From positions 1-48,485 of the IMG/VR virus record IMGVR_UViG_3300037088_001222: a DNA stretch of 48,485 bases. One strand, written 5' to 3'. Both the position numbers and the translations under genes were made by a program. The DNA is from a virus. Below, one piece after another: positions 31,365 through 48,485 of this stretch. The notes under the pieces were generated by a model. The model ran no database searches. It was not told where the DNA came from and saw only the letters and a program-made list of their open reading frames with translations. Every line of letters begins with the position of its first letter. Position 1 is the stretch's first letter.

Positions 31365-33911
31365 TCACGCCGCCTGGCGCTGCTGGTCGTACGGCGGCAG
31401 TGCGATCTCCACTTTCCCGTCGGCGAACCGCAGCTGCGCGTCCGCCTGGTTCGCCACATCCATGTCGTGGGTGATCAGGTAAATCCGCTCGAACCCGGCG
31501 AGCTGCTGCAGCCGTCGCAGCATCGGCAGATAGTGTGGACGGTTCCCCGGGCTCAGCGGTCCCGTCGTCTCGTCGCGCCAGCAGGTCCGGATCGGCGTCG
31601 CGCTGCGCGTGTTCACATACGCCGCCAGCGCGTTCGCGAGCGCTTCATCGACCGGCACCTGCTCGCCGCCCGACAGGTCGCCGATGTCGCGTGGGGCCCC
31701 GCCGCGCTCGTTGTCGGTGACGAGGATCGAGAAGGTCTCCTTCATCCCGTCGCCGTTCTTGCTCTTCGAGACCCGCGCTTCCTGGGTGACGACTTCGACG
31801 GTGAACCGTGCGCCGAACGACGACAGCAGGAGGTCGTTCGTGAACGCCGAGACGGTCGGGCCCGCGTTCGCAATCTCGAGCGTCTGCAAACCGTCGCGTG
31901 CGAGCGCCTTCGCGAGCTGCTGCCACTCGACGAGTTCGGCGTCGAGCGTGCGCAGTCGGCCCTCGAGGTCCGCGAGCGTGGCTCGGCGGTCAGCGAGCGC
32001 CTGGCGCCGGCGATCGAGTTCCTTCCGTCCGGCGTCCACCCGCGCGAGCGTGCCCGTAGCCTGGTCCCACTCCCCGCGCAGCCCGGCGAGTTGGCCCTGC
32101 CAGCGTTGCGCCTGTTCGTTGGTCTGGTCGGCCGCAGCGAGTTCCGCCTTTGCCGAGTCCAGCCGCGTCTCTCGGTGCTGCTGGTCGACGTCGATCGAGC
32201 GCAGGTTCAACTCGGTCGCCTGCCACGCCTGCGCGGCCCGTTCCTCGGCCGCCTGCTCGGCCGCGGTGCGATCAGCGGTCGCCCGGTCGCGGTCCGCGAT
32301 CAGTTCCTCCTCGCGCGCCAGCGCGCGCGCCTGAATCTCCGGCCTGGCGGCGTCGGCGGTCCGTGGCGCCTCGTCCCGCTTTCGCCGCAGGTCCTCGAGC
32401 CGGGTCTCGGCCTCCGCCACCTTTGTAACGAGCGCCGCCTTCGCCTGGTGCTTCTTCTTCGCGGCGTCGAGTTCGCCGATCGTCGTCGCGATGATCGACA
32501 GCTGGTCAGCCGCGGCATGCAGGTCGGCGTTGAGAGTTGACAGTTGAGAGTTGAGCGACGGCACGGCGCCGGCTTTCTCGCGGAGGGGCTCGATCCGGCC
32601 CTTCGCCGCGATCGCCTGCACCAGGAACTGGCAGCCGGCATATTCGCCGCTCGCCTGGCAGGGGACGTCATCGACGAGTTGAGCGTCGGCCTCGGCCCGT
32701 TTCAGGTCCTTCTCGGCTGTCTGCGCGTCGTACAGCGCGGCCTGCACCGCTCGAGAGGCCGTGACGATCTCGGACCGCTTGTCCAGCCAGCGCGCCTGGT
32801 CGTCGCGTGCTGTGCGCAGGTGCTCGTCCGTCTCCTCCACTGCGACGATCGCCGCCTTGATGCCCGCGGCGTCGGCCAGCAACGCCTCGTTGTTGGCGAT
32901 CCGTTCGTCGAGGTCCTTCAGTGTGGCGGCGAGGTCCCGATCGAGCTTGTCGAGTTCTACGCGCAGAGTCGCCGAGTTCTTCTGGGACCGGGCTTCGAGG
33001 TCGCGCATCGCGCGCGCGTGGGCGTCGGCGAGCCGCTTCCGTTCATCAACAAGCCCCTGTTCGGCGGCTTTGCCGGCCGCCTCCACGCGCTTGCGCTCCG
33101 CCGCCGCGGTCGCGAGTTCGGTTTCGATTGCCCGGACCTTCTGCAGCACGACCGCCCGAGCCGCCACCTGGTCCTGCACCGTGGCCAGCTGCGCCTCGAC
33201 GTCCGCAATCGATTGCGCCAGCGCGGTGCGCCGCCGCTCAGCCCCGGCCGCCTCGGAGTTGAGCAGGGCGCCCTCCGTGTCGAGCGCGTCGTCCTCTGTG
33301 GGCCTGACGTCCCGCTCGAGGATCTCCCGCTGCGCCAGCATCCGGCCGCGTCCGGCGTCCACGAGCCCGGCTGCCGTCTTCGCCACCTGGCTCATCGCGT
33401 CGAGCCGCTCGAGGCCAAGGAACTTTGCGAACAGGTCCTTGCGCTTCGACTTCTCGAGGCTACTGAACCGCCCGCTGCCGTCCTGCGCGGAGAACGCGGA
33501 CGCGGCGAGCACTGCGCGCGGCGGGAAGATTCTCGCTATGCACTGGTCGTACGTGGTGACCTTGCCGTCGTTGAGCACGGTGCGCGTGCCGTCCGGGTCC
33601 ACGCGGACGATGACGGCTTCGCTGGCGCGCTTCACGGCGTCGACGTTGAGCCGGCACTGATAGACGGCGCCTTCGAGATCGAACGCCGCTTCGAGGTAGC
33701 TGTCGCGGTCGTGGGCGTAATCGCTGATGTCCTTCGAGCGGGTAAAGAACTGGCGGTAGAGGCAGGCGAGCGGCGCCTCCAGGAACGTGGACTTCCCTTC
33801 CCCGTTTTCGCCGACCAGCGCAATCAGGCCGCTCGGCAGCTGCGTGCAGTCGACAGTGACGGCATCGGCGTAGCGGAGGACGCCTCGGATGGTCAGAGAT
33901 AGCTGCCTCAC
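31365..33911 (-). CDS. SbcC/Rad50-like ATPase
   Basis: An 848-residue SMC-type ATPase. Walker A GENGEGKST (34-42) near the N-terminus, two long coiled coils, a hook region with CQASGEYAGC, and a C-terminal lobe with LSGGEQVPVDEALANALAAY and IYLITHDMD. Canonical hooks use CxxC; here the two Cys are eight apart. The GTG start (33911) overlaps the upstream stop (GTGA). The long open frame upstream to 34214 is on another gene. Together with the SbcD-like gene it forms a nuclease that processes DNA ends. A heptanucleotide repeat sits in the coiled coil. Confidence 0.88.
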   Translation of the reverse strand: MRQLSLTIRGVLRYADAVTVDCTQLPSGLIALVGENGEGKSTFLEAPLACLYRQFFTRSKDISDYAHDRDSYLEAAFDLEGAVYQCRLNVDAVKRASEAVIVRVDPDGTRTVLNDGKVTTYDQCIARIFPPRAVLAASAFSAQDGSGRFSSLEKSKRKDLFAKFLGLERLDAMSQVAKTAAGLVDAGRGRMLAQREILERDVRPTEDDALDTEGALLNSEAAGAERRRTALAQSIADVEAQLATVQDQVAARAVVLQKVRAIETELATAAAERKRVEAAGKAAEQGLVDERKRLADAHARAMRDLEARSQKNSATLRVELDKLDRDLAATLKDLDERIANNEALLADAAGIKAAIVAVEETDEHLRTARDDQARWLDKRSEIVTASRAVQAALYDAQTAEKDLKRAEADAQLVDDVPCQASGEYAGCQFLVQAIAAKGRIEPLREKAGAVPSLNSQLSTLNADLHAAADQLSIIATTIGELDAAKKKHQAKAALVTKVAEAETRLEDLRRKRDEAPRTADAARPEIQARALAREEELIADRDRATADRTAAEQAAEERAAQAWQATELNLRSIDVDQQHRETRLDSAKAELAAADQTNEQAQRWQGQLAGLRGEWDQATGTLARVDAGRKELDRRRQALADRRATLADLEGRLRTLDAELVEWQQLAKALARDGLQTLEIANAGPTVSAFTNDLLLSSFGARFTVEVVTQEARVSKSKNGDGMKETFSILVTDNERGGAPRDIGDLSGGEQVPVDEALANALAAYVNTRSATPIRTCWRDETTGPLSPGNRPHYLPMLRRLQQLAGFERIYLITHDMDVANQADAQLRFADGKVEIALPPYDQQRQAA
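32529..32555. repeat. Heptanucleotide tandem repeat GTTGASA inside the SbcC-like gene
   Basis: Units GTTGAGA, GTTGACA, GTTGAGA, GTTGAG are consecutive. Read on the coding strand, they give LNSQLSTLN, a leucine-patterned part of the coiled coil. Three 7-bp units equal 7 codons, so the array matches the heptad period. Confidence 0.8.
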
Positions 33912-34387
33912 GCGGCACCTCCGTTCTCGCGCGGCGTTTCGGCATTCACGATCGTTCCGGGGACTGGCCTGGCGGCGTTGTATTCGCCGTCCCACGCGAA
34001 CATCGGCTTCAGATCCAGCGCCACGCAGACGTCGAGGTAGTGCGCGTACAGGTCCTTGTCGTTGTAGAACGCCACGTGACACTGCTCGTACCAGCACTTG
34101 AACTCGCCGAGCAGCGTCATCGCCTTCGGCCCGCGGTGCGCGCCCTCCGCACCCCGCGCCTCCAGCATCGCGTCGGCCAGCAGGTATGCGCTTCGCGCAC
34201 AGGTCCCGGCCCATTCGCGGTCGCCCTCGCTGTCTGGTTCGTTCGGGCCGACCGAAATCTCGGAATTGGCCTGGAGGCCCATCATCGACATGGCGGCGAA
34301 GTGGTCGCGCAGCCTCATGCCTTCGTCAGCGAGCGGCACGTTTTCGGAGACCGGGAACGCCGGCCCGCCATCGTGTTCGTATTTCAT
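33908..34387 (-). CDS. Conserved phage protein of the GGPAFP type
   Basis: A 159-residue protein that begins MKYEHDGGPAFPVSENVPLA and has DEGMRLRDHFAAMSMMGL, the hallmark of a small phage protein of unknown role found in many phages. The middle has ARSAYLLADAMLEAR and FKCWYEQCHVAFYND. It overlaps SbcD by 4 bp upstream (ATGA) and SbcC by 4 bp downstream (GTGA), so all three are coupled. Function unknown. Confidence 0.7.
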   Translation of the reverse strand: MKYEHDGGPAFPVSENVPLADEGMRLRDHFAAMSMMGLQANSEISVGPNEPDSEGDREWAGTCARSAYLLADAMLEARGAEGAHRGPKAMTLLGEFKCWYEQCHVAFYNDKDLYAHYLDVCVALDLKPMFAWDGEYNAARPVPGTIVNAETPRENGGAA

Positions 34388-35637
34388 GCGGCCACCTCGT
34401 GCTTCTGTCCGCTCTCCATGTTGGCGACCAACGTCGCGACCGCCGAGAGCACGTCCGGGCCGTCCCGGTGCTCGAGGTCCGCGAGCTTCTGCAGGACCGT
34501 GGCGGCGACGTTGCTGCCACCGTTCGCGCGCGACCAGGCGTCGATCTTCTCGGCCAGCGTCTTCGCCGCCGCGACTTCCTCGGAGCGGAGGCCGCGGTCG
34601 GGAATGGCGACGGGTTCGAGCTCCAGGCGCGCGGCGCCAGCGAACTGCGCGCGGACGACGTCCTCCGCGACAATAGACCGCTCCGACGCGGGGAAGCGGA
34701 ACCGCACCCGCACCTCACATCCGTCCCACGTCGACGGGGCGCCTTCCATCTCCCCGCCGGGCCCGCGCGTGGCCCGCCAGGTGAAGCCGTATTCGCGCGT
34801 GAACTCGCCCTCGACGTGGTACAGGGCCGGCGTCTGAATCGGCACCGACGTGACCGACGGCGGCAGCCTGGCGCGATCGTCGAAATACTCGACGAGCAGG
34901 AATCGCTTCTCCTCCAGCTCGCCGAAATTACAGGGCGCCACCGAACCGCAGTACCACGCCTGCGCGCTGTCGAACTGTTGCGGCTTGTGCACGTGGCCGA
35001 GGATTTTCGGGAACGGACCGAGCAGTTGGAGCGTCTCGCGCGAGATCTCGATCTCGCGACCGATTGAGGGTTGAAAGTTCGACAGCGTCGCGCCGGCGAC
35101 GTTGATGTGTCCCAGGAACAAAGGCAGGTCGCCGCACCGCATGACGCCGTCCTCGATCTCCGCCGCGAGTCCCTGGAGGATGTCCCCGAGCGCCGCACCG
35201 CCGGCCTGCTGAGTGTCGGCCGCGCTCGCTCCGGCAGCGATGAGGCCAGAGCGAGCGGGATACGGCAGGCAGCCGACGATGGCTGTGGCGCCCGTCGGGA
35301 GCGGGACGCGGAGAGTGCGGGGGCTGACGACGACATAGATAGGCCACGCGGCCGCGAGCCTCGAAAAGATCAGGCTGTCGCCGGGAACGCCGTGGTTGCC
35401 TTCCACGCAGACAATCGGCGCCCGGGCGGCCATCCGCTGGAACCGTTCGGCGATCGCATTGCGGTCATCCACGGACGACCGCTGATCGAAGAGGTCGCCA
35501 GCCTGGAGCCAGAGGGCCAGGCTCGGCAGGGACAGACCGTAGTCGATGATTGAATCGAGCGCGGCGACGTACGCGGCGTCGCGGAAATGTCCGCTCCGCT
35601 TGTGCACGTCGCCGATGCAGACGATCTGGTGCGTCAT
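34384..35637 (-). CDS. SbcD/Mre11-like nuclease
   Basis: A 417-residue metallophosphoesterase: GDVHKRSGH (motif I), LQAGDLFDQ (II), CVEGNHGVPGD (III), then LFLGHINVAGA and ILGHVHKPQQFD. These are the metal-binding residues of Mre11/SbcD. The C-terminal part is a capping region with a long helix. It pairs with the SbcC-like protein two genes downstream, and a GGPAFP protein sits between. It likely resects or cleans DNA ends to feed annealing. Confidence 0.9.
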   Translation of the reverse strand: MTHQIVCIGDVHKRSGHFRDAAYVAALDSIIDYGLSLPSLALWLQAGDLFDQRSSVDDRNAIAERFQRMAARAPIVCVEGNHGVPGDSLIFSRLAAAWPIYVVVSPRTLRVPLPTGATAIVGCLPYPARSGLIAAGASAADTQQAGGAALGDILQGLAAEIEDGVMRCGDLPLFLGHINVAGATLSNFQPSIGREIEISRETLQLLGPFPKILGHVHKPQQFDSAQAWYCGSVAPCNFGELEEKRFLLVEYFDDRARLPPSVTSVPIQTPALYHVEGEFTREYGFTWRATRGPGGEMEGAPSTWDGCEVRVRFRFPASERSIVAEDVVRAQFAGAARLELEPVAIPDRGLRSEEVAAAKTLAEKIDAWSRANGGSNVAATVLQKLADLEHRDGPDVLSAVATLVANMESGQKHEVAA

Positions 35638-37910: not shown

Positions 37911-38126
37911 TCAACAACCAATCCGGACGTACCACGTCTTGATGCAGGTCCCGACCAGCGGACCCGGCCAGGGCTTCTGCTCGCGCTGGACCAGTCCGTG
38001 CTTTACCGCCCACGACAGCCTGCGTTCGTCCACTGGCGTGAGTTGCCCAATGCTGGCGATCTCCTCCCGGCCGGCGAAGATCGCCAGCAACTCGGTGATA
38101 CGCTCGCGATGACGGCTGCTCTCCAT
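37911..38126 (-). CDS. 71-aa protein, unknown
   Basis: A small helical protein (SSRHRERITELLAIFAGREE, then IGQLTPVDERRLSWAVKHGL). The chosen ATG is 38126. The pattern VDERRLSWAVKHGLVQREQK could be a small winged helix. It lies 7 bp after the upstream stop. Confidence 0.5.
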   Translation of the reverse strand: MESSRHRERITELLAIFAGREEIASIGQLTPVDERRLSWAVKHGLVQREQKPWPGPLVGTCIKTWYVRIGC

Positions 38127-38133
38127 TGCTCGC

Positions 38134-38385
38134 TCACTTCCCGTGAAACCGAATCCGCGGTCGTCTGCCGTCGAGCGCCCAGCCCGGCGACTGCCAGCCG
38201 CAATCCGTGCAGCGTTGGGCCATCCGGTCCGGCGCAAAGTCGTAGACCAGTGCGTGCCCGTGCACCGCGCCGCACCACCACTGCCCGACCGCGCGCGTGA
38301 GCCGGGCGAGTTGCCCGGTCGGGTGCGGTCCGGCCTGATTGCCTACCGCCTCAACCCTCGCCCGGCTCACGCTCAGGGTCGTCAT
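38134..38385 (-). CDS. 83-aa zinc-finger-like protein
   Basis: WWCGAVHGHALVYDFAPDRM is followed by RCTDCGWQSPGWALDGRR, giving a C ... C-x2-C motif and a basic end. Its start overlaps the upstream stop (ATGA). A small zinc protein; function unknown. Confidence 0.5.
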   Translation of the reverse strand: MTTLSVSRARVEAVGNQAGPHPTGQLARLTRAVGQWWCGAVHGHALVYDFAPDRMAQRCTDCGWQSPGWALDGRRPRIRFHGK

Positions 38386-38591
38386 CGCTTCTCCAGTCGC
38401 GCGCCTTCGCCGGGCGCGAGCAGATGCCCGAACCGCTCCCGCAATTCGTCGGCGTCCTCGCCCACCAGGTCATAGACCGACACGGCGGCCAATGCCGGCA
38501 CGAGCTTGCGCGTGGTCGCGAACGCCTCGCGCGGGTCGCGCGCGTAGACGTAGTAGGTGCCAAGCGGCGTGCGGTTGATGTGCAGCGTCAT
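38382..38591 (-). CDS. 69-aa protein, unknown
   Basis: MTLHINRTPLGTYYVYARDP, then REAFATTRKLVPALAAVSVY and DLVGEDADELRERF suggest a beta hairpin plus helices. ATG 38591 overlaps the upstream stop. Coupled on both sides. Unrecognised. Confidence 0.5.
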   Translation of the reverse strand: MTLHINRTPLGTYYVYARDPREAFATTRKLVPALAAVSVYDLVGEDADELRERFGHLLAPGEGARLEKR

Positions 38592-38911
38592 GAGAAGCGC
38601 CTCTTCGCTGGCGCGGGAAGATCCGCCGCGATCGCGGCAGACTCTCTCCGTGGAAATCTCGCCGGCCGCCGGTCCGACGTCGCCGGCGCGCGGTGCGCGT
38701 CGATCCACGCATCGAGATCCGCGAGCAGGAATCGCAGCCGGCCGGACTTCACGTACCGCTCGCGCTGCCCGTCCGCGGCTTGCCGCTCCATCACCCGCCC
38801 GTCCGTCCGCACGCAGGCGATGCGCCCTTCCTCGGCGAAGCGATAGAGCGAACTCACGGGCAGCCCGAGGTAGGCGGCAGCGTCGGTGGCCGAGAGCCAG
38901 CGGCGCGTCAT
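38588..38911 (-). CDS. MerR/excisionase-type HTH protein (possible Xis)
   Basis: A 107-residue protein: MTRRWLSATDAAAYLGLPVS, then SLYRFAEEGRIACVRTDG and RLRFLLADLDAWIDAH, a standard Xis/HTH_17 fold, followed by a basic tail. Its location early in the leftward operon, near the immunity region, suits an excisionase or a transcription regulator. It overlaps both neighbours by 4 bp. Confidence 0.7.
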   Translation of the reverse strand: MTRRWLSATDAAAYLGLPVSSLYRFAEEGRIACVRTDGRVMERQAADGQRERYVKSGRLRFLLADLDAWIDAHRAPATSDRRPARFPRRESAAIAADLPAPAKRRFS

Positions 38912-39303
38912 CGGCTCACCGCCTTCGCCATCCGGACCTTCACGCGCACGAACTGCATCGCGGCCTCCGCCAGGCGCGTTGCCGCGAGCACCGCCGCATC
39001 CTCGCGTTCGACGTGCGCGCCGCGTTCGTGCGCCATGCGATCGAGGTAGTCGAGCACGATCGAATCCGGGAGTTGATCGAGCAGGGACAGTGGGAAGCCT
39101 TGGACGCCGCTCGTGAGCCGGGAGAACTGGGCCTCGCTCATCCTGCAGTCGCTGGCGAGCGCCTTGCGCGCCGTCCCGCCGGCATCGATCGCGTCATTGA
39201 GGCACCGCAGGGCGAGGCGCTTGTCCTCGCGATCGACGAGCGCCGCGTCCGGCTCCTCGTGGTAACGCGTGGTAAGTGCATTCCCTAGCGTTGCGGTTCT
39301 CAT
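38908..39303 (-). CDS. CII-like regulatory protein
   Basis: A 131-residue helical protein with KRLALRCLNDAIDAGG, RMSEAQFSRLTSGVQGFPL (HTH-like) and SIVLDYLDRMAHERGAHV. It resembles phage regulators of the CII/CP76 kind. It is the second gene after the leftward promoter. A role in lysogeny control is inferred from fold-like pattern and position. Confidence 0.5.
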   Translation of the reverse strand: MRTATLGNALTTRYHEEPDAALVDREDKRLALRCLNDAIDAGGTARKALASDCRMSEAQFSRLTSGVQGFPLSLLDQLPDSIVLDYLDRMAHERGAHVEREDAAVLAATRLAEAAMQFVRVKVRMAKAVSR

Positions 39304-39348
39304 TGGCAGATCCTCGTGCTCGTGAACCTCAGCAGCCCTACCCCACCG

Positions 39349-39371
39349 GCGCCGGTCTCATCAGCCGGCGC
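39349..39371 (-). promoter_or_regulatory. Hairpin between first and second leftward gene
   Basis: GCGCCGG (39349-39355) and CCGGCGC (39365-39371) form a 7-bp stem with a 9-nt loop, in the 75-bp gap after the HTH gene. It may be an attenuator; no U-run follows. Confidence 0.4.
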
Positions 39372-39378
39372 TGCCCAC

Positions 39379-39579
39379 CTACGCGGCCTCGCTGGCGCGC
39401 ACGCGGTCGATGTACTTCCGGATCTTCGCGAGCGTCCTGTCGTGCATCTTCGGGTTGGGCGTGTTGAGGATTCGATAGATCGCCTGGCGCGTGACGCCGT
39501 GAATCTCGCGCGCGAGATCCTCGTACGTCAGGTCGCGGTCGATCCGGATGCGGTTCAGTTCAAGGACTTCGTTCAACAC
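39379..39579 (-). CDS. Cro-like HTH protein, first gene of the leftward operon
   Basis: A 66-residue protein with GTG start (39579): VLNEVLELNRIRIDRD, LTYEDLAREIHGVTRQAIYR, then MHDRTLAKIRKYI. This is a compact lambda-type HTH, shorter than repressors, like Cro. The frame is open upstream, but a perfect -35 and a -10 lie there, so transcription starts near the GTG and translation may be leaderless. It likely competes with the divergent gene product at the TTACGTRATG sites. Confidence 0.65.
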   Translation of the reverse strand: MLNEVLELNRIRIDRDLTYEDLAREIHGVTRQAIYRILNTPNPKMHDRTLAKIRKYIDRVRASEAA

Positions 39580-39586
39580 GATGGCA

Positions 39587-39615
39587 ATCTTAAGGGCGAC
39601 CTTACGTAATGTCAA
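39587..39615 (-). promoter_or_regulatory. Leftward early promoter (leaderless transcript predicted)
   Basis: On the minus strand, TTGACA (39615-39610) is separated by 17 bp from TAAGAT (39592-39587). The start site would fall at about 39580, right at the GTG of the Cro-like gene. The spacer holds TTACGTAATG. Confidence 0.7.
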
Positions 39616-39644
39616 TAGACAAACGGATAATATTTTACGTGATG
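39602..39644. promoter_or_regulatory. Candidate operators TTACGTAATG / TTACGTGATG
   Basis: Direct repeats TTACGTAATG (39602-39611) and TTACGTGATG (39635-39644), 33 bp apart, about three helical turns. The core TTACGTAA is palindromic. The first copy lies in the spacer of the leftward promoter, the second near a GATAAT -10-like element (39625-39630) of the rightward side. Confidence 0.55.
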
Positions 39645-39676
39645 GCAAGTGCCTGAAGTCCCTAGACTTAGCGGTC

Positions 39677-40237
39677 GTGACTGCCGCAGAAGTGTTGATC
39701 GCCCTGAAGAAACTCCGCGAGGACGAGGGGACAGACATCGCGGTCGCGCGACTGCTGCACGTGCAGTCAAATCACGTCCCACGCATGCTGGAGAAGGCGC
39801 CGGACGACTTTCACCCGCAGACCGCCACGTGCATTCGGATTGCGGCCGCGATCGACCGCCCGGCCCGCGACGTGCTGGAGGCGCTCGGCCAGCAGGACGT
39901 CGCCGACGCGATCGAGGAGTGCTATCGCGAGCGGCCCGTGCAACCGAAACAACCGTCGATCACGCTGCCGCGCGAGGATCAAGCCCACCTCGCTCAGGAG
40001 CTGCAGCGCTTACCCGACCCCATCAAGGAGGCCCTTGGGGCGCTCGTCCATGCGCTGGCGGCGGAGCCTCGTGCTCGTCGTCGGAAATCGACCGGGACCC
40101 GTCCCGCTATTCGAGCGGGCAAAGAAGACGTGTCCGATCTGCTTCAGGTTGAATCAGATCTGGAACCTTCTGACGCCGAGCGGCCGGCGCATCGTCCGGG
40201 AACTCGTGCGGGAGGCGCATCGAAGCACAAGCCATAG
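39677..40237 (+). CDS. Probable repressor, C-terminus in doubt
   Basis: GTG 39677 starts a 186-codon frame. Residues 1-70 (VTAAEVLIALKKLREDEGTD, then LHVQSNHVPRMLEKAPDDFH and CIRIAAAIDRPARDVLEALG) look like an HTH DNA-binding domain with a helical dimer region. It lies opposite the Cro-like gene, the usual place of the repressor. From about 40060 on, codon use degrades in this frame while the +1 frame becomes strongly coding. So the true protein may change frame, or end earlier than shown. Confidence 0.55.
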   Translation: MTAAEVLIALKKLREDEGTDIAVARLLHVQSNHVPRMLEKAPDDFHPQTATCIRIAAAIDRPARDVLEALGQQDVADAIEECYRERPVQPKQPSITLPREDQAHLAQELQRLPDPIKEALGALVHALAAEPRARRRKSTGTRPAIRAGKEDVSDLLQVESDLEPSDAERPAHRPGTRAGGASKHKP

Positions 40238-40244
40238 ACTGTAA
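40050..40244 (+). CDS. Overlapping +1-frame segment with CxxC motif
   Basis: This frame shows good third-position G/C from about 40071: LVLVVGNRPGPVPLFERA, KKTCPICFRLNQIWNLLTPS, GRRIVRELVREAHRSTSH. It could be a separate 64-aa gene (ATG 40050 or GTG 40071) overlapping the repressor frame by nearly 190 bp, or the repressor's real C-terminus reached by a frameshift. A hairpin (CTGGCG/CGCCAG, 40245-40258) follows. Confidence 0.5.
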   Translation: MRWRRSLVLVVGNRPGPVPLFERAKKTCPICFRLNQIWNLLTPSGRRIVRELVREAHRSTSHRL

Positions 40245-40258
40245 CTGGCGTTCGCCAG
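40245..40258 (+). promoter_or_regulatory. Hairpin after the repressor region
   Basis: CTGGCG-TT-CGCCAG follows the end of the repressor-region frames and precedes the accessory operon. It may act as a weak terminator; no strong T-run. Confidence 0.35.
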
Positions 40259-40325
40259 ATTCCCCACTCAGGAGGGTCGCCCTTGGGTGGCTCGGGGAGG
40301 CCTGGCAACGACGAGGAGAAGGACC

Positions 40326-40931
40326 ATGACACGAGCACTCGTTGTTGTCGTCGCTGTGCTGCTCCTGGGGTCAGCATGGACCGCTGGCGCACAGCCACTC
40401 ACGGACGATCAGATCGCCGCCATCATTCGCGACCCCGGCAAGGCCGAGCCTGGGCTGCACCTCGATGAAGCGTTCAATCTCGCGGCGTCGGGATTCGTCA
40501 TCGACGTCTATTCGCCAGCCGCCTGGCTGCGCCTGCAAGCACAGAAGGCGAAACGGGAAATGCGTCCGTTCACACCAGCGGATGTGGATGCCGAGATGCG
40601 TGCCGACGTGTGGCGCGTCAAGGCCTTTCCGAGTATGCCGCGCCGACTCCACGACACGATCGCCGTCTCCTCGGTCTCCCACGTGGTCATTCGCGATAAG
40701 TCCGCAGCAACCGTGATCCAACCCCTGACCAAGTCGCCGTTTCCGCATTCCGCACAGAATGCGCTCGGCGCGTCAGTCAGCTATGACGGCTTGGATGCTG
40801 GCTTCCCGGGTGAGGCGGTGCGGGGGTTATGGGGCGAACGGTCGGACCGTCCGTTTTGGATCTCGGTCATCGGTCCCGATTGGAAATATGATTTCGAGAT
40901 CAAGCCGAAGCACTTCGACAAGCTGAAGTGA
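40326..40931 (+). CDS. Secreted protein, unknown
   Basis: A 201-residue protein with a clear Sec signal peptide (MTRALVVVVAVLLLGSAWTA, then GAQP), so it is exported to the periplasm or beyond. The mature part has LTDDQIAAIIRDPGKAEPGL and DVDAEMRADVWRVKAFPSMP. The C-terminus (WKYDFEIKPKHFDKLK) is beta-like. No known enzyme motif. A GAGGAGAAGGACC site precedes ATG 40326. Its stop overlaps the next start (GTGA), making it the first gene of a four-gene operon with a methyltransferase-nuclease. Confidence 0.75.
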   Translation: MTRALVVVVAVLLLGSAWTAGAQPLTDDQIAAIIRDPGKAEPGLHLDEAFNLAASGFVIDVYSPAAWLRLQAQKAKREMRPFTPADVDAEMRADVWRVKAFPSMPRRLHDTIAVSSVSHVVIRDKSAATVIQPLTKSPFPHSAQNALGASVSYDGLDAGFPGEAVRGLWGERSDRPFWISVIGPDWKYDFEIKPKHFDKLK

Positions 40932-41533
40932 CGGGCATTGCGCTGGCGGGGCTCGTCTTCGCGGGCCTGGCTGCCGTCGTCGCAATTGCGCGCCGGCGTG
41001 CACGGGCGCATGCTGCGCCAATAGCCCGGCCCCCGTGTTGCGTCGCTGAACTTATTCCGCGCGCGCAGACCTGCACGTTTCTTGCGCTTCCGGACGCGTG
41101 CGACGCGTGCCGGGAATTCGACGGAGAAGCTGTCGTCATCGGATCGTCCCGGTGGAAAGAGATCGAGCCGCCATACGCCGGATGTACGAGACGCGGCGGC
41201 TGTCGCTGCGTCTATTGCTACGTGACGGTTTCGTTGCCGCCGTCGCACGAACAGGCCAGACGGCGGAAAGATGACGAGCGTTGGGCGGCCGTCGGAGCGA
41301 TGCGGGCGGCTTGTGGTCTCGGCGGCTACGCCAATCTGAAAGCGTGCATCGAGAACGTGGCGAAGTCCGACGTCAGCGGATCCGAACTCGCCTACGCGTA
41401 TCGTCGACTCGGCGAATGCGCAGAAGCGGAAACCCGATTCGCCGAAGCGATCGAGTCATACGAGACAGCCATGGGGCTGGACCCGAACGTCGGCGTGAAA
41501 CGTCGCCTGAGCCGGCTGCGCAAGAGTCGATGA
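40928..41533 (+). CDS. Membrane protein with MuF-type cysteine module and TPR-like tail
   Basis: A 201-residue protein, GTG start. Residues 4-21 form a membrane segment (IALAGLVFAGLAAVVAIA). Residues 58-94 (C58-x2-C61 ... D65-G66-E67 ... C86 ... C92-R-C94) align without a gap to the portal/MuF C-terminus of this same phage (C684-C720), sharing C, C, D, G, E, R, E, P, P, C, C, R, C. Residues 120-195 look like TPR helices (LAYAYRRLGECAEAETRFAE). It probably faces the cytoplasm or periplasm with a metal-binding domain. Function unknown. Confidence 0.7.
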   Translation: MTGIALAGLVFAGLAAVVAIARRRARAHAAPIARPPCCVAELIPRAQTCTFLALPDACDACREFDGEAVVIGSSRWKEIEPPYAGCTRRGGCRCVYCYVTVSLPPSHEQARRRKDDERWAAVGAMRAACGLGGYANLKACIENVAKSDVSGSELAYAYRRLGECAEAETRFAEAIESYETAMGLDPNVGVKRRLSRLRKSR

Positions 41534-41826
41534 CGCACCTGCTCACGTTTCACCGCTCGGTCGTCCGCGAGATGAACGAGGACGCGGACGATCCGTGCCT
41601 CTGGGCGCACCTGGTCCGCGGCGACGAACGGCGCGCGTACGAGATCTACCCTGGCGTGACGTTCGCCGGCTGGCAGGCCCGCACCGAGGTCAACGGCGTC
41701 GAGCGCGGCGGCATTCACGTCAAGCGGGAGAACGTCCTCGCGAAGAAGACGGCGTGGCTCGCGGAGATCAAGCAATTGCGATCCGCGGGATGGCGCGACG
41801 TGAAGGCCCTCGAGGATCAGGGATGA
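41530..41826 (+). CDS. 98-aa protein in methyltransferase operon
   Basis: MTHLLTFHRSVVREMNEDAD is followed by CLWAHLVRGDERRAYEIYPG, TFAGWQARTEVNGVERGG and KKTAWLAEIKQLRSAGW. It is a compact alpha/beta protein without a recognised family. Both ends overlap neighbours by 4 bp (ATGA), so it is made together with the methyltransferase. It might be a specificity or accessory subunit. Confidence 0.6.
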   Translation: MTHLLTFHRSVVREMNEDADDPCLWAHLVRGDERRAYEIYPGVTFAGWQARTEVNGVERGGIHVKRENVLAKKTAWLAEIKQLRSAGWRDVKALEDQG

Positions 41827-43460
41827 ACCGACTCTACTACGGCGACAACCTGGACGTGCTGCGCGAGTGCATCGCGAGCGAGTCCGTGGATCTCGCGTAC
41901 CTCGACCCACCGTTCAAGAGCGACCAGAACTACAACGTGCTGTTCAAGGCGCACGACGGCGCCAAGGCGGCCGCGCAGATCCAGGCGTTCGAGGACACGT
42001 GGGAGTGGAACGAGGAGTCCGCCCGGGCGTGTGCGCACGTGATCGAGTCGGGCGGTCCGGTGTCCGACGCGATGCGCGCGTTCCGGACGTTCCTCGGCGA
42101 CAGCGACATGATGGCCTACCTGGCCATGATGGCGCCGCGGCTGGTGGAATTGCGGCGGGTTCTGAAGCCAGCGGGAAACATCTTCCTGCACTGCGACCCG
42201 GCCGCCAGCCACTACCTGAAGATGCTCATGGACGGGACCTTCGGGCCGGAGAACTTCAGGAACGAGATCGTCTGGCACCGGACGGCGGCGAAGGGGTTGA
42301 TGACCCGCGCCCTCGCCGGCAATCACGATGTCATTCTCAGCTACCAGCGCAGTGCCGGATCGACGTGGAACACCGATCAGATGTTCACCGCCTACGACCC
42401 GGACGACCTCGATGAGAAGACGTTGGACAAGTACTCGGCGACCGATGCGACCGGCCGGCGCTACCAACTCACGAGCCTGTTGAACCCCAACCCGGATCGC
42501 CCGCATCTGACTTACGAGTTCCTCGGCATCACGCGCGTCTGGCGCTGGACGAAACCCCGCATGCAGGCCGCCTACGAGGCGGGCCTGGTCATCCAGCCGC
42601 GACCCGGAGCGGTGCCGCGGTACAAACGATACCTTGACGAACAGCGGGGCAAGCCGTTCGGGGACGTCTGGACCGACATCCCCCCGATCAATGCTCGAGC
42701 CCGCGAACGACTCGGCTACCCGACGCAGAAGCCTGAGCCTCTGCTCGAGCGCCTCATTCAGGCGGGCAGCAATCCGGGAGACGTCGTGCTCGACGCCTTC
42801 TGCGGCTGCGGGACGACGATCGCGGCCGCGCAGAAGCTCGAGCGCCAGTGGATCGGCATCGACGTCACGTTCCTGGCGATCAACCTGATTCGACAGCGCT
42901 TGCGGGACCAGTACGGGCCTGACGTCGACGCCACGTACGAGGTGATCGGGCAACCGACGACCGTTCAGGATGCGGCGAACCTGGCCGCCGAAAAGCCGCA
43001 CCAGTTCCAGTGGTGGGCGACGGGGCAGGTCGGCGGCCGCCTGGCCGAACAGAAGAAGGGCGCCGACCGCGGCATCGATGGCCGGATCTTCTTTCACGAT
43101 GAGGGTCCGAAGGGACCGACCAAGCAGATCATCCTGTCGGTGAAGGCGGGACACCTGAAACCCGAGTACGTCCGCGAGTTGCGCGGCGTCATCGAACGGG
43201 AACAGGCGGTGATCGGCGGGCTCTTGTGTCTCAACGAGCCGACGAAGGCGATGCGCCGCGAGGCAGCCAACGCCGGCTTCTACAAGTCGCCCTGGGGCAG
43301 CGAGCACGCACGCCTGCAGATCCTGACCGTCGCCGAGCTGCTCGAGGGAAAGCGCATCGACTACCCAGCCGAGCGGCAGACGCAGGCCACGTTCAAGCGG
43401 GCGCCTCGCGCGGTGAAGGAACACGAGCAGCCGCGGCTCCGCGAAGCCGAGGACGTGTAA
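41823..43460 (+). CDS. Beta-class DNA methyltransferase fused to PD-(D/E)XK nuclease
   Basis: A 545-residue fusion. DPPF (28-31) precedes the AdoMet motif FCGCGTT (326-332), the beta-class order for N6-adenine or N4-cytosine methylation; YPTQKPEPLL (299-308) and WIGID flank motif I. From residue 395 an Mrr-like nuclease domain follows: GGRLAEQKKGADRGIDGRIF with D419, then IILSVKAG with K441, the PD-(D/E)XK pattern, then an end rich in helices. It would both mark and cut DNA in one chain, as a self-contained restriction-modification enzyme. Translated from an ATGA overlap. Confidence 0.85.
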   Translation: MNRLYYGDNLDVLRECIASESVDLAYLDPPFKSDQNYNVLFKAHDGAKAAAQIQAFEDTWEWNEESARACAHVIESGGPVSDAMRAFRTFLGDSDMMAYLAMMAPRLVELRRVLKPAGNIFLHCDPAASHYLKMLMDGTFGPENFRNEIVWHRTAAKGLMTRALAGNHDVILSYQRSAGSTWNTDQMFTAYDPDDLDEKTLDKYSATDATGRRYQLTSLLNPNPDRPHLTYEFLGITRVWRWTKPRMQAAYEAGLVIQPRPGAVPRYKRYLDEQRGKPFGDVWTDIPPINARARERLGYPTQKPEPLLERLIQAGSNPGDVVLDAFCGCGTTIAAAQKLERQWIGIDVTFLAINLIRQRLRDQYGPDVDATYEVIGQPTTVQDAANLAAEKPHQFQWWATGQVGGRLAEQKKGADRGIDGRIFFHDEGPKGPTKQIILSVKAGHLKPEYVRELRGVIEREQAVIGGLLCLNEPTKAMRREAANAGFYKSPWGSEHARLQILTVAELLEGKRIDYPAERQTQATFKRAPRAVKEHEQPRLREAEDV

Positions 43461-43545
43461 CACAAATCGTCAGCGCCACGGATCAGGAGATCGCGCCAGC
43501 CGTCACTCGAGCGGTCCCAAGCCAGCCGCTCAACAGGGGAACGTC

Positions 43546-44109
43546 ATGAAACGACACTTGCGTTCGCTCCTCGTTGTAGCGTCGGCGCTGGTCATCCTCG
43601 GCACGCTATCCGGCCAGGCGCTCGCGAAGCATGCTGGACCGACGCGATCGCCGGCCGCGGTCGCTCCGGCCGGTCACGGTGCCGTCGCCATCGGTCAGGC
43701 GAAGACGGCCGACAACGGCGACACGATCGTCTACATCACGAAGACCGGGAAGAAGTACCACGCGGACGGTTGCCGCTCGCTCGCCAAGAGCCGGATCCCG
43801 ATCAAGCTCCGGGACGCCGTGGCGCGCGGCTTTACCGCGTGCTCGATCTGCAAGCCGCCGGCGCTGACAGCGGGTCAGGAGGCTGCCGTCCCTCCGACGG
43901 CAGCACCGCCGGCGCCGGCGGCTCGCACGGCCCCCGCGCAGGACAACGGCGACGTCACGGTCTACATCACGAAGACGGGCGCGAAGTACCATCGGGCCGG
44001 CTGTCGGTCGCTGGCTAAGAGCAGCATTCCGATCAAGCTACGCGAGGCCGTGGCGAAGGGCTACAGCGCCTGCAAGCTGTGCAATCCGCCCGCGTTGACG
44101 AAGAAGTAG
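43546..44109 (+). CDS. Secreted protein with two tandem Cys-domains
   Basis: A 187-residue exported protein with a signal peptide (LLVVASALVILGTLSGQALA). Two copies (61-105 and 138-182) of a domain with VYITKTG-x-KYH-x2-GCRSLAKS and IPIKLR-[DE]-AVA-[RK]-G ... AC-x2-C-[KN]-PP, joined by an Ala/Pro linker. Each has H, C, C, C ligands for one metal. The same unit occurs at the end of ComEC-type beta-lactamase-fold proteins and nucleases. Here it stands alone, so a metal or DNA-binding role outside the cell is possible. A recent duplication is suggested by near identity. Confidence 0.8.
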   Translation: MKRHLRSLLVVASALVILGTLSGQALAKHAGPTRSPAAVAPAGHGAVAIGQAKTADNGDTIVYITKTGKKYHADGCRSLAKSRIPIKLRDAVARGFTACSICKPPALTAGQEAAVPPTAAPPAPAARTAPAQDNGDVTVYITKTGAKYHRAGCRSLAKSSIPIKLREAVAKGYSACKLCNPPALTKK

Positions 44110-44118
44110 CGGCCGATC

Positions 44119-44919
44119 ATGAACAACGAAACGGCGGGTGCCGACACACAGAGCGCGCCGCGCAAGACGCCATTGCCTTGGTGGAGAAGCCTGACGGTTC
44201 AGATCGTCAGCCTTGCTCTGGGCCTAGGTGGCATCGCCGCCACTGCGCTCACATACTATTTCCCTCCACGGCCCCGGCCTGTCTTCATGATCGATTCCGT
44301 TCGCGCAACTCTCGTCGACGCCGAGCGGGACACCGGCTTGACCCTGCTGTTCAAGGACCGACCTTTGCCACCTGGCTCGAAAATCACCGCGGTGCGAGTC
44401 TATTTCTGGAACGCGGGGCGCAGTCCGATATGGGCCAACGACGTCCTGCTGCCGGTGCAGTTGGACGTGATGGACGGCGCCGAGATCCTCTCGACGAAGG
44501 TCTTGAAGCCCTCGCGACAGGAGATCGGTCTCCGTGTCGAGACGGATGCGCGCCGGGTTGTGCTGGGGTTCAAGGTCCTGGAACCAAATGACGGGACGAC
44601 GATCCAGGTCTTGCTCCTTGGCACTCCGTCTGCCCGCCTTTCAGCTGCCGGTTCGGTAGTGGGCGTCGGTTCGCCGATAGTCATTACCCAGGGGGCTTCT
44701 GAGAACGATGGCTCTTTAGCCAAGGCTTTCTTCATGACGCTCGTAGGTATTCTGGCTGGCGTTGCTGGCTTCACTCGAGCCACCTGGGTCACCCCCCTTC
44801 CCGGACGCAGACAGCGCGCCCTGCTGTACGTGACCGCGACGGTCACTACACTGTGCGGCATCATGCTGCTAGTGGTGTTGTTCTTACTGCAGACGACTCC
44901 ACCGCAGCGATTGCTCTAG
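44119..44919 (+). CDS. Three-span membrane protein, unknown
   Basis: A 266-residue protein with hydrophobic spans near 27-47 (LTVQIVSLALGLGGIAATAL), about 200-220 (LAKAFFMTLVGILAGVAGF) and 236-258 (ALLYVTATVTTLCGIMLLVV). A soluble beta-rich domain of about 150 residues (AVRVYFWNAGRSPIWANDVL) sits between span one and two. The order suggests an external or cytosolic sensor. No family is claimed. Confidence 0.65.
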   Translation: MNNETAGADTQSAPRKTPLPWWRSLTVQIVSLALGLGGIAATALTYYFPPRPRPVFMIDSVRATLVDAERDTGLTLLFKDRPLPPGSKITAVRVYFWNAGRSPIWANDVLLPVQLDVMDGAEILSTKVLKPSRQEIGLRVETDARRVVLGFKVLEPNDGTTIQVLLLGTPSARLSAAGSVVGVGSPIVITQGASENDGSLAKAFFMTLVGILAGVAGFTRATWVTPLPGRRQRALLYVTATVTTLCGIMLLVVLFLLQTTPPQRLL

Positions 44920-44940
44920 TCGACGGAACCGAGATGACGA

Positions 44941-45168
44941 ATGACGAGCGCTGACACGGTCCTGTGGACGCTGACGAAGAACGGTCACCGCATGGAGGCC
45001 GTACAGCGCGTCGTTCGGGATCTCGGCCTCGAGCTCCGGTTCTCGATCGATGGCGAACTGTATCACTCGCAGATCTACCGCAACGGCGGGGACCTGCTCG
45101 ACGCGGCCAAGGCGAAACGCGTTGATGCCGAGGCGAAGGGATGGACAGCGCCGCCGTCAGCCGGCTGA
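44941..45168 (+). CDS. 75-aa protein, unknown
   Basis: MTSADTVLWTLTKNGHRMEA, VQRVVRDLGLELRFSIDGEL and NGGDLLDAAKAKRVDAEAKG form a small alpha/beta unit found in various bacteria. Its stop lies in a 14-bp perfect palindrome (GTCAGCCGGCTGAC, 45156-45169), 5 bp from the end of the convergent receiver gene. Function unknown. Confidence 0.6.
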   Translation: MTSADTVLWTLTKNGHRMEAVQRVVRDLGLELRFSIDGELYHSQIYRNGGDLLDAAKAKRVDAEAKGWTAPPSAG

Positions 45169-45169
45169 C
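45156..45169. repeat. 14-bp palindrome at convergent gene ends
   Basis: GTCAGCCGGCTGAC is self-complementary and spans the stop of the plus-strand 75-aa gene. It could serve as a weak bidirectional terminator stem or protein site. Confidence 0.4.
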
Positions 45170-45173
45170 GCGG

Positions 45174-45566
45174 CTACCGGCGGATCAATCTGCGCACCGC
45201 ACGGATCAGCTCGTCGACCGTGAGCGGCTTCGTCAGGACAAGGTCGGCGCCCGCGTCCTTCGCCGCGGCGAGACCTGGCGCGTCGACCCAGGAGGTGACC
45301 ACGAGAATCGGCACGGTCTCCATCCCGGAAAGCGATCGCAGGCGACTGCAGATCTCGGCGCCAGGCGCGTCGGGCAAGGCGAGTTCGGTCACGACGAGGT
45401 CGGGGGTCACGCGCGCGATGGCCGCCTGCGCCTCCGCCGCGGTCGCCACGGCGATCGGACGGCAGTGGATCAAGCGTAGGACGCTCTTCCACATCTGGCG
45501 TGTGTCAGCGTGGGGCTCGATGACGAGGACGATCGGACGACGACGACGCGACGACGGGGATTGCAT
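45174..45566 (-). CDS. Atypical response-regulator receiver (Glu at phospho-site)
   Basis: A 130-residue single receiver domain without output domain. The fold is clear: VLVIEPHADTRQMWKSVL, DLVVTELALPDAPGAEICSR, ILVVTSWVDAPGLAAAKDAG, LVLTKPLTVDELIRAV. But the acidic pair is E17-P18 rather than D-D, and the phosphate-accepting Asp is E61. T91 and K113 are kept. So it probably cannot be phosphorylated and may be locked in an active-like state. It is the only minus-strand gene in the accessory region. ATG 45566 lies upstream of a basic start (SSRRRRP). Confidence 0.75.
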   Translation of the reverse strand: MQSPSSRRRRPIVLVIEPHADTRQMWKSVLRLIHCRPIAVATAAEAQAAIARVTPDLVVTELALPDAPGAEICSRLRSLSGMETVPILVVTSWVDAPGLAAAKDAGADLVLTKPLTVDELIRAVRRLIRR

Positions 45567-45651
45567 CCGAGATCTGATGATTGCACGGTAACGGTCGGGG
45601 CGGCGCGCTCCGTTGCACAGAATATTTGGCTGTCCGGAACGGAGGGTGTCC

Positions 45652-45930
45652 GTGACGAAGACCGAGTCGTGGGGCATCTGCTTTCCGCTCGACGAATTCC
45701 AGGCGATGACGCCGACGGGGCGGACGCAACTATTGGACGCGCTGGCTCCGTTCGGCGCCCATCTCTCGCTCCCCCGCTGGCCCTCGCCGGCGATGTCGAG
45801 CGGGGACGTTGGTGACGTCTGCATCGCGGTGACGACGGCCGATCAAGCGGCCGCGGTGAAGCGCGTGCTGCTGTCGTTTGGCCTGTCGCGCGCGACGCTG
45901 CATCGACTCGACGAGACGGCATCGGAGTGA
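45652..45930 (+). CDS. 92-aa protein, unknown
   Basis: GTG 45652 with GGAGGG upstream. WGICFPLDEFQAMTPTGRTQ, then CIAVTTADQAAAVKRVLLSF suggest an alpha/beta ferredoxin-like fold. Divergent from the receiver gene and 3 bp upstream of the DUF6680-like gene. Unrecognised. Confidence 0.5.
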   Translation: MTKTESWGICFPLDEFQAMTPTGRTQLLDALAPFGAHLSLPRWPSPAMSSGDVGDVCIAVTTADQAAAVKRVLLSFGLSRATLHRLDETASE

Positions 45931-45933
45931 CGG

Positions 45934-46464
45934 ATGAACGCCAATTATCCGGAGGCAACCATGCTTGTGGTAAATGTTCTTGCACTTGCAATGTCGCCGC
46001 TCGTCGCCGTTCTGGTGTCCATGTACCTTCAGAGTCGGCGCGATAAGCGCAGTCAGAAGCTTTCGATCTTCAACACGTTGATGAGTACCAGAGCACCCGC
46101 GATGACCATGACGCACGAACACGTGCGCGCCCTCAACATGATCGACTTCTCGTTCCCCGACTGTCCATCAGTGCGACAGCTGTGGCACGAGTACTTCGAC
46201 ATGCTATCCAATGAGGGGCTTAACAATCCGGTCGGCTGGGGACAGCGTCAGAAGAAGAAGCTCGAGATGACCGCCGAGATGGCCAAGGTTCTCGACTACG
46301 GCTCGGCGATCACTCACTTGGACGTCGATCGAGTCTATTACCCGGTCGGGTTGGGCGCTCAATCGCAGAGGTCCGACGAGATCGCCGCGGAAGTACTGCG
46401 CGTCTTGAAGGCTAGCGGTGGAGTCCAATTCACACCACATAATCCACCAGCAGCCGCCGTGTGA
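45934..46464 (+). CDS. Membrane-anchored DUF6680-like protein
   Basis: A 176-residue protein with an N-terminal anchor (MLVVNVLALAMSPLVAVLVS), then RRDKRSQKLSIFNTLMSTRA and HVRALNMIDFSFPDC, a pattern I associate with DUF6680, whose role is unknown. The C-terminal part is helical (EMTAEMAKVLDYGSAITHLD). It may act at the inner membrane. It precedes the YfbU-family gene. Confidence 0.6.
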   Translation: MNANYPEATMLVVNVLALAMSPLVAVLVSMYLQSRRDKRSQKLSIFNTLMSTRAPAMTMTHEHVRALNMIDFSFPDCPSVRQLWHEYFDMLSNEGLNNPVGWGQRQKKKLEMTAEMAKVLDYGSAITHLDVDRVYYPVGLGAQSQRSDEIAAEVLRVLKASGGVQFTPHNPPAAAV

Positions 46465-46580
46465 CAGTGCGTGTCGCTGAAGCCGACGAACCAAGACGCC
46501 GAACGACCGGCGGAAGAAGTAGCGGACGGGAGCTCGAGACGAAGGGCTCGCACCCGCCGCAATTCACGAGGGGACGAAAG

Positions 46581-47096
46581 ATGCAACTGACTAGACTTGA
46601 GCGGCTCATGCTGGCCAACCAGTACCGCATGCTGGAGGTGCTCGTCCCGGACGAGGCAGACTCCTACGCCCGTTATCGCGAGGCGTTGGAGTGGGGATAC
46701 GAGGCAGAATACGAGGGCATCGCGAAGAACGTCTACCCCGACGCGCTGAGCGGCGAGGCCTGCGCCGAGGTCGTGAACATCCTCGATATGTTCAGCGCGC
46801 TAAAGCGTGCCTACGGGCGACTGGACGACAAACCCGACGTGATCTGGATTGAGTTCCCGGGCTTCTCTGGGAACGACGAAACCATGCAGTTGGCGTACGC
46901 TCAGTTCTTCTGCGACAAAGGTCGATTTCAGGATCTGGACAGAGGTCCGGACAACTTCAACGGTCATATCCCGGTTCTTCCTGCTTACCGTCGAATGCTC
47001 GGCGAGTGGCTTCCGATGCCGGCCGAACAACGGTACAACTTGACGAGGGACGACATTGTGAGAATTACATCAGCCGCGCGTGACTCCGGTGCGTGA
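46581..47096 (+). CDS. YfbU-family protein
   Basis: A 171-residue protein: MQLTRLERLMLANQYRMLEV, then EEYEGIAKNVYPDAL-like text, a VVNILDMFSALKRAYGRL helix, and YAQFFCDKGRFQDLD with NFNGHIPVLPAYRRMLGEW. This matches E. coli YfbU in order and size (about 165 residues). YfbU has been reported among proteins that promote MazF-linked death in E. coli; its action is unclear. ATG 46581 follows GAGGGGACGAAAG. The longer frame from 46461 is probably not used. Confidence 0.85.
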   Translation: MQLTRLERLMLANQYRMLEVLVPDEADSYARYREALEWGYEAEYEGIAKNVYPDALSGEACAEVVNILDMFSALKRAYGRLDDKPDVIWIEFPGFSGNDETMQLAYAQFFCDKGRFQDLDRGPDNFNGHIPVLPAYRRMLGEWLPMPAEQRYNLTRDDIVRITSAARDSGA

Positions 47097-47168
47097 GAAC
47101 GGAGCCGCCAAACAGCTGAAGAGGGCGCGCCTGCGCGCAACGAGCGGGCCCGGCCGGAGGCCTGGCAG

Positions 47169-48485
47169 ATGACCGTCTACCGCCCAGACGACCGCGCCGC
47201 GTACCGCTACGACTTCTGGTACAGGGGCCAGCGCCACGTCGGGTCGACTGGCCAGCACCGGAAGGATCTCGCCGACACCTTCGAATCGGACCTCAAGCGG
47301 AAGCTCCGGGAGCGCGCTGGCGGGATGCCGATGGATCCGGCCGACACGCCTCGCTTCCAGGACTGGGCCGAGACGTACTACGCGCACGCGCAGAAGCGGG
47401 TCACCAGGCCGGAGCGGATCGACGACCTACTGCGCGTCGTGCTCCGCTTCTGGGGCGCGAGGCCGGAGCGCGAACACGGGAAGATCAAGATCGTCGAAGG
47501 CGAGCCGTACCACGACCTACACCTGGGCGACGTCGTCGCGGACCCGATGTGGATCGTGCGCTTCGAGGACTGGCTCGACGCACGCCCGATCCCCATCTCT
47601 GGGCAGACGAAGAACCAGTACCGGTCGGTCGTCTCCCAGATGTTCGCCCTGGCCGCCTCGCCGGCGCATCGAAAGCGCACGGGCATCATCACGAACCCAC
47701 TGGCCGGCATCGCCCGGGACAGCCAGGTCGAGCGCACGACGATCGTCACCGTGGAGGAGCTCCGGCGCTGGCTCGCGCACGCCAGCTACCACGTCCGCCT
47801 GGCCATCGCGATCGCGGCGCTCGCGCCGAAGCTGCGCCTGGCGAACGTGCTCGCGCTCACCTGGCGAGATCATCTCGACCCCGCGCTGCAGTACATCACC
47901 GTGATGCAGCACAAGACGGTGCGGGCGACAGGGCGGCCGCTCGTCGTGCCGATCGTCCCGCAGCTGCGCCAGATCCTCGAGGATGCGCGACGTCGGAACC
48001 GCGGCGAGTACGTCGTCGCGTATCGCGGCCGCCCTTTGGCCTCCATCCGCGGCGGTCTCGACGGCGCCGCGACCAGGGCGGGCCTGCACTACGGCCTCAA
48101 GGACGGGATCACGTTCCACACGATCCGCCACGCGATGGCGACGCTGCTCGCCGAACTACGGGAGCCCGAAGCGATCCGCAAGGAACTCATGGGCCACGTG
48201 CGCATCGAGACGACGCAGCGCTACACGCACCTCCGACCGATGCACCAGGTGGCCCCGCTCGAGCGGCTATCGGACGCGATGCCGATCGCCGACCTGGTCA
48301 CGAATCCGCGCCGGCGCGCGCTCTCCAAGGGCTCCCTCCTCGACCTGCCGCCTGGTGGGAAAAACGGTGGGACTGCCTCCGAGACTGACGGGGAAACACT
48401 GGGAAAACGGGGGAATAGCGAGAAGGCGAAACCGGAGGCCGAATCGGTCGATTCAGGCCAGAAAACCCGGCGAAAGTCGCGCTAG
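47169..48485 (+). CDS. int: Tyrosine integrase
   Basis: A 438-residue site-specific recombinase. An N-terminal arm-binding-like region (YRYDFWYRGQRHVGSTGQHR) and a core-binding SAM-like region (130-185) precede the catalytic domain: R223 (with N226 where Glu is usual), K249, H317-x-x-R320, H343 and nucleophile Y352 (RYTHLRP). The C-terminus is a 60-residue Lys/Glu/Gly-rich tail. It is the last gene, at the right edge, transcribed outward, so an attachment site is probably just beyond the window. Confidence 0.92.
   Translation: MTVYRPDDRAAYRYDFWYRGQRHVGSTGQHRKDLADTFESDLKRKLRERAGGMPMDPADTPRFQDWAETYYAHAQKRVTRPERIDDLLRVVLRFWGARPEREHGKIKIVEGEPYHDLHLGDVVADPMWIVRFEDWLDARPIPISGQTKNQYRSVVSQMFALAASPAHRKRTGIITNPLAGIARDSQVERTTIVTVEELRRWLAHASYHVRLAIAIAALAPKLRLANVLALTWRDHLDPALQYITVMQHKTVRATGRPLVVPIVPQLRQILEDARRRNRGEYVVAYRGRPLASIRGGLDGAATRAGLHYGLKDGITFHTIRHAMATLLAELREPEAIRKELMGHVRIETTQRYTHLRPMHQVAPLERLSDAMPIADLVTNPRRRALSKGSLLDLPPGGKNGGTASETDGETLGKRGNSEKAKPEAESVDSGQKTRRKSR

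Follow-up and report, generated by a model that had tools for sequence, protein, structure and literature searches.

Receivers without Asp at the phospho-acceptor position make up ca. 4% of receivers, and in 26% of those the replacement is Glu, more often than any other residue; in these aspartate-less receivers the first acid of the acidic pair is kept in 65%, the second residue is acidic in only 29%, and the conserved Lys is largely kept (PMC4395418). A 2025 review estimated such pseudo-receivers at ca. 6% of bacterial receivers and described how they switch and what they bind as an open question; the idea that they act by binding two-component partners has its precedent there, and they can also bind proteins outside two-component systems, as FrzS binds SgmX (PMC12632262). 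Replacement of Asp by Glu alone is often insufficient for activation, as in CheY, PhoB, and Spo0A, and the activity of ChxR is independent of its Glu (PMC4395418); a Glu acceptor is activating in some regulators, including NtrC and VirG, and a chemical report of Glu phosphorylation exists (both cited in PMC4395418). Among phage proteins, PIT4 binds host kinases (PMC10714779) and, by analogy, may be taken as a precedent for a phage-borne kinase binder.

The window, the whole stretch of 48,485 nucleotides analysed in this study, contains a gene for a 130-aa protein that, judged by its residues, is a Glu-type aspartate-less receiver (pseudo-receiver). Like the receivers of that class (PMC4395418; PMC12632262), it has a receiver fold by profile and model, Glu in place of the acceptor Asp, and a retained first acid and Lys; its second acidic position is non-acidic, which is true of about 71–80% of the class. 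Unlike them, it has no output domain and is borne by a prophage. The protein matches the class on all residue features tested and, on these features, is ordinary for it. It also gave a 68.5-bit match over its whole domain to phrog_731, a group of receiver-like phage proteins of unknown function, whose profile has 227 positions; the match of the window protein is confined to its receiver part.

The receiver gene and its active site

The protein matched Pfam Response_reg (PF00072) at residues 13–125 with 62.9 bits (E = 3.9e-17; cut-off, 30.2 bits), covering profile positions 1–111 of 111. This receiver-domain match is far beyond chance. The AlphaFold2 model had a mean pLDDT of 93.3 with strands and helices predicted to alternate in the receiver order, and solved receivers among its best structural matches superposed on it at TM ca. 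0.8–0.88 by query length. Pfam and PHROG profile matches gave no output domain, and no DNA-binding domain was found; the protein stops after the receiver part, in agreement with its description as a stand-alone receiver in an earlier note on this DNA. The gene has a third-position GC of 0.85, which is coding-like, and an intact frame. Its start codon is the one chosen in the earlier note, and the frame stays open upstream. Extension to an ATG at 45824 is disfavoured, and the short version is favoured because a plus-strand 92-aa ORF, whose GTG start at 45652 is preceded by a good ribosome site (GGAGG at 45641), overlaps the extension. A weak test for a sigma-70-like promoter immediately upstream was negative, and no clear consensus promoter or terminator of its own was found.

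Mapping onto relatives placed the acidic pair at E17–P18, as the earlier note had read it, and the acceptor at E61, followed by T91 and K113 (Table 1). In the AlphaFold2 model, E17, E61, T91, and K113 are at or just after the ends of β1, β3, β4, and β5, respectively, and are therefore in active-site locations. The usual residues are present at D+4 (Pro65) and D+8 (Gly69). A gapless alignment with the nearest own-genome paralog paired E61 with its Asp (VVTELALP and VVTDLAMP, respectively), with no alternative Asp of the window protein at this position, and the Glu acceptor reported earlier was thus confirmed. The residue set of an active phospho-receiver (acidic pair, Asp, Thr/Ser, and Lys) is incomplete in the window protein, which has E-P, E, T, and K. 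Since the acceptor position lacks an Asp and Pro18 stands where the second, metal-binding acid would be, ordinary Asp phosphorylation would not be expected. The receiver is presumably signal-independent, as had been proposed.

Table 1 Positions of the receiver gene, its active-site codons, neighbouring genes, and Glu-receiver proteins with a Cys-rich region.
Feature	Position	Strand	Basis or remark
Single-domain Glu-type pseudo-receiver (putative), 130 aa + stop	45174–45566	−	Response_reg 62.9 bits; E61 acceptor; pLDDT 93.3
E17–P18 codons, acidic pair (second, metal-binding acid lost)	45513–45518	−	mapping onto relatives
E61 codon (GAA), phospho-acceptor position	45384–45386	−	mapping and paralog alignment
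T91 codon, conserved Thr/Ser	45294–45296	−	mapping onto relatives
V110 codon, K-3 (aromatic of Y-T coupling lost)	45237–45239	−	
K113 codon, conserved Lys	45228–45230	−	mapping onto relatives
Convergent 75-aa ORF	44941–45168	+	relative adjoins related integrase in L140
Divergent 92-aa ORF	45652–45930	+	GTG start; GGAGG at 45641–45645
DUF6680 protein, cargo	45934–46464	+	domain match
YfbU-domain protein, cargo	46461–47096	+	domain match
Tyrosine-type integrase, right end	47169–48485	+	right 58-bp att repeat begins 10 bp past window end
Glu-receiver/Cys-rich family members	L025:1471–2196; L032:1426–2223; L046:1168–1899		

The prophage and its cargo slot

The window carries genes for tape measure, capsid, protease, portal, and large terminase proteins, together with a helicase and a phage-type integrase. 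In contig C133 of the host genome, tRNA-Leu(gag) is at 16566–16652, and a 58-bp perfect direct repeat is found at 16597–16654, over the 3′ part of the tRNA gene, and at 71552–71609; the next-best repeat was 23 bp with mismatches. The second copy starts at window position 48495, outside the window. The receiver gene (C133:68231–68623) is located between these repeats, which are ca. 55 kb apart. Because the repeats in tRNA-Leu(gag) and past the integrase flank the receiver, the element is a ca. 55-kb prophage integrated in tRNA-Leu(gag) with the receiver inside, and the prophage location given in the earlier note holds. The host genome assembly is a draft, its contamination estimated at 5.56%, but the prophage is tied to C133 by the att repeats and by contig continuity. 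Beyond the prophage, this contig continues with genes of chromosomal type, among them one for an FtsH-like protease, as named from their sequences by eye. The prophage also contains SbcC-/SbcD-like genes at 31365–35637, and their relatives are also found near a related integrase in another locus (L141).

All other genes predicted from 40.2 to 48.5 kb are on the plus strand, and the start of the receiver gene is 85 bp from that of the divergent 92-aa ORF. Domain and defence-library scans gave no family match for a longer version of this ORF (45613–45930), there was no kinase match among the scanned window proteins, and no Rfam match was obtained within 38000–48485. In the defence-library scan of the cargo, the methylase was the sole match; the gene at 41811–43460 encodes a DNA methylase fused to a region matching NA-iREase1 (NACHT-associated inactive restriction endonuclease). 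The gene at 43546–44109 encodes a secreted-looking protein, which has two near-copies of the motif VYITKTG.KYH..GCRSLAKS.IPIKLR.AVA.G...C..C.PP and is matched twice by phrog_14556.

Searches using the integrase, the capsid, and viral contigs yielded a few distant related prophage loci; integrase relatives came from three other genomes of the order, a capsid relative from one. The 16–19 kb read around each contained no receiver. In L140, other genes occupy the slot that separates the integrase from the relative of the 75-aa gene, as expected for a variable cargo slot. An ORF resembling helix-turn-helix/DUF433 proteins and a DUF5615-like ORF, toxin-antitoxin-like by eye, were seen at L140:11206–12319. 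The receiver lies inside the att sites and is absent from the relatives' loci examined, and therefore it is moron-like single-gene cargo beside the integrase, not a core phage gene.

Relatives in the host genome and the order

Protein scans gave no ortholog of the window receiver in the viral contigs or in phages, and the plasmid scan gave two weak matches; two more single-protein scans were also without a match. One protein scan of the genome contigs returned 12 weak relatives, with Asp in all those in which the acceptor position was covered. At E 1e-20, 297 genomes of the phylum gave no match except in the receiver's own genome. The best-scoring receiver outside that genome is one of G003 (35%, E = 9.4e-21), with Asp at the acceptor. 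Receiver matches were obtained in 134 of 50,697 phage records, many of which are short or unannotated and possibly host DNA. Within the collections searched, the window receiver thus appears to be a singleton, and selection on the gene is unproven.

We compared 51 receivers of its own genome, taken from the best matches to the window protein and forming a similar-to-query sample, not a full census. The acceptor residue was Asp in 48, Glu in two, and Ala in one, and the second acid was missing in all three without the acceptor Asp. The Glu receiver other than the window protein is a 258-aa protein (L144:491–1267, G000:C33). Its receiver is C-terminal and has a D-G pair, a Glu acceptor (ILLEADLP), and Tyr kept at K-3; its N-terminal part presumably is a phosphotransfer (Hpt)-like region, as it appears by eye.

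The nearest own-genome relative is a canonical single-domain receiver, G000:C112:80830–81192 (L145:6759–7274; the C112 receiver), which shares 38% identity with the window receiver over 120 gapless residues. It adjoins genes for a TonB-C protein and an aminoacyl-tRNA editing-domain protein, and a hybrid kinase is encoded ca. 7 kb away. The C112 receiver differs from the window protein in having an E-D pair and the acceptor Asp and in being located on another contig, outside the prophage, whereas the two are alike in their single domain and in four helix-1 residues. These residues, D21, T22, M25, and V29 of the window protein, occupy what we take to be the four kinase-specificity positions of RR468-type receivers, known from HK853–RR468 work. 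Among the 50 other own-genome receivers, only the C112 receiver has D-T-M-V at these positions; as estimated from residue frequencies, a set of 50 receivers would yield one such match by chance with a probability of very roughly one in five. The shared residues are suggestive but follow in part from overall similarity.

Glu receivers are also found in a family of 12 proteins of the order (L025, L032, L046, L055, L056, and L091–L097), which are ca. 240 aa long with an N-terminal receiver and occur in eight of the 193 genomes of the class searched, all in one taxonomic family. All 12 have Glu at the acceptor and all 12 have lost the second acid, which is replaced by R, Y, H, A, P, or G, and K-3 is without an aromatic residue. 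Their conserved Cys-rich C-terminal region (CPxC...SHIGGV...EQWDY...C...YRxRTRKLR) is unnamed by Pfam; in the three members scanned, only the receiver part passed the Pfam cut-off. The L025 copy adjoins genes that, from a look at their sequences, we assume to be CheB/CheR-like. The family resembles the window protein in the Glu acceptor, the non-acidic second residue (D-P in two), and the lack of the K-3 aromatic; unlike the window protein, it has the Cys-rich C-terminal region and is confined to another family of the order. No remnant of the Cys-rich SHIGGV region was found downstream of the window receiver in the three minus-strand frames. Quick trees placed the window protein outside the Cys-rich family, and a clade uniting the two was not rejected by clade tests; longer constrained tree searches with the window protein inside or outside the family gave p-AU values of 0.126 and 0.144, neither of which is rejected. 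Common ancestry of the two, as judged from these trees, is neither shown nor rejected.

Possible roles of the prophage receiver

The earlier note suggested that the Glu mimics phosphorylation. In that case, E61 would lock the receiver in an active-like state and switch on what a host single-domain receiver targets, in the manner of CheY and DivK, regardless of signal. T91 and K113 are kept, so an E61–K113 salt bridge is possible, and NtrC and VirG exemplify activation by Glu. However, such a change alone often does not suffice, ChxR works independently of its Glu, the metal site is lost at P18, and Val at K-3 leaves the Y-T coupling missing. We regard phosphomimicry as unlikely, and as less likely than had been implied. 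Because Asp-to-Glu alone often fails to activate and the aromatic residue of the Y-T coupling is gone, a decoy or constitutive binder is favoured over a phosphomimic.

It is rather doubtful that the receiver serves the prophage itself, for example in lysogeny control or as adaptor or co-regulator for the divergent 92-aa gene, unrelated to host two-component systems. Its divergent orientation, the 85-bp spacer, the nearby integrase, and the FrzS–SgmX example would suit such a role, whereas the lack of a receiver around the integrase and capsid relatives and of a DNA-binding domain in the protein speaks against it. Improbable, too, is neutral or decaying cargo, that is, a captured host receiver gene whose acceptor was lost through drift: no orthologs were found, and the acceptor, metal site, and K-3 residue are all lost, but the frame is intact with coding-like third-position GC, the core fold is well predicted, and T91, K113, P65, and G69 are retained, in line with the retention of the first acid and Lys across the pseudo-receiver class (PMC4395418). 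A normally phosphorylated response regulator using another acidic residue is scarcely credible; the protein has several Asp and Glu residues, and Glu phosphorylation has been reported chemically, but no Asp aligns with the acceptor and the directly metal-binding acid is Pro18.

Our preferred reading, which we hold tentatively, is that the prophage carries a phosphorylation-blind, one-state binder or decoy that competes with a host receiver for a two-component partner. This reading is supported by the joint loss of the acceptor, the second acid, and the K-3 aromatic, since a real pseudo-receiver is expected to lose the second acid with the acceptor, as seen in 3 of 3 own-genome receivers without Asp and 12 of 12 Cys-rich family members. 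The window receiver would not be phosphorylated and would act through protein-protein contact alone, in one fixed state. It may bind a host histidine kinase or phosphotransfer domain, or else a protein that a host single-domain receiver targets; competition with the host's own receiver would then damp the response of the lysogen whatever the signal. The likeliest partner set, on a weak lead, would be that of the C112 receiver. Titration of a host kinase, as the earlier note proposed, can reasonably be inferred, with the shared helix-1 residues, perhaps a chance match, as its only sequence lead. The more specific proposal that the temperate phage uses a phosphorylation-blind mimic of one particular host receiver, acting as a dominant-negative decoy on a kinase or phosphotransfer protein and decoupling lysogen signalling, is unlikely.

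Receivers that lack the acceptor Asp form a known class; the window receiver is a one-off cargo gene in the collections searched. With no output domain, no matched kinase nearby, and a canonical host paralog, this phage-borne stand-alone pseudo-receiver is a simple test case. Binding to a host partner would make it a natural decoy for two-component signalling.
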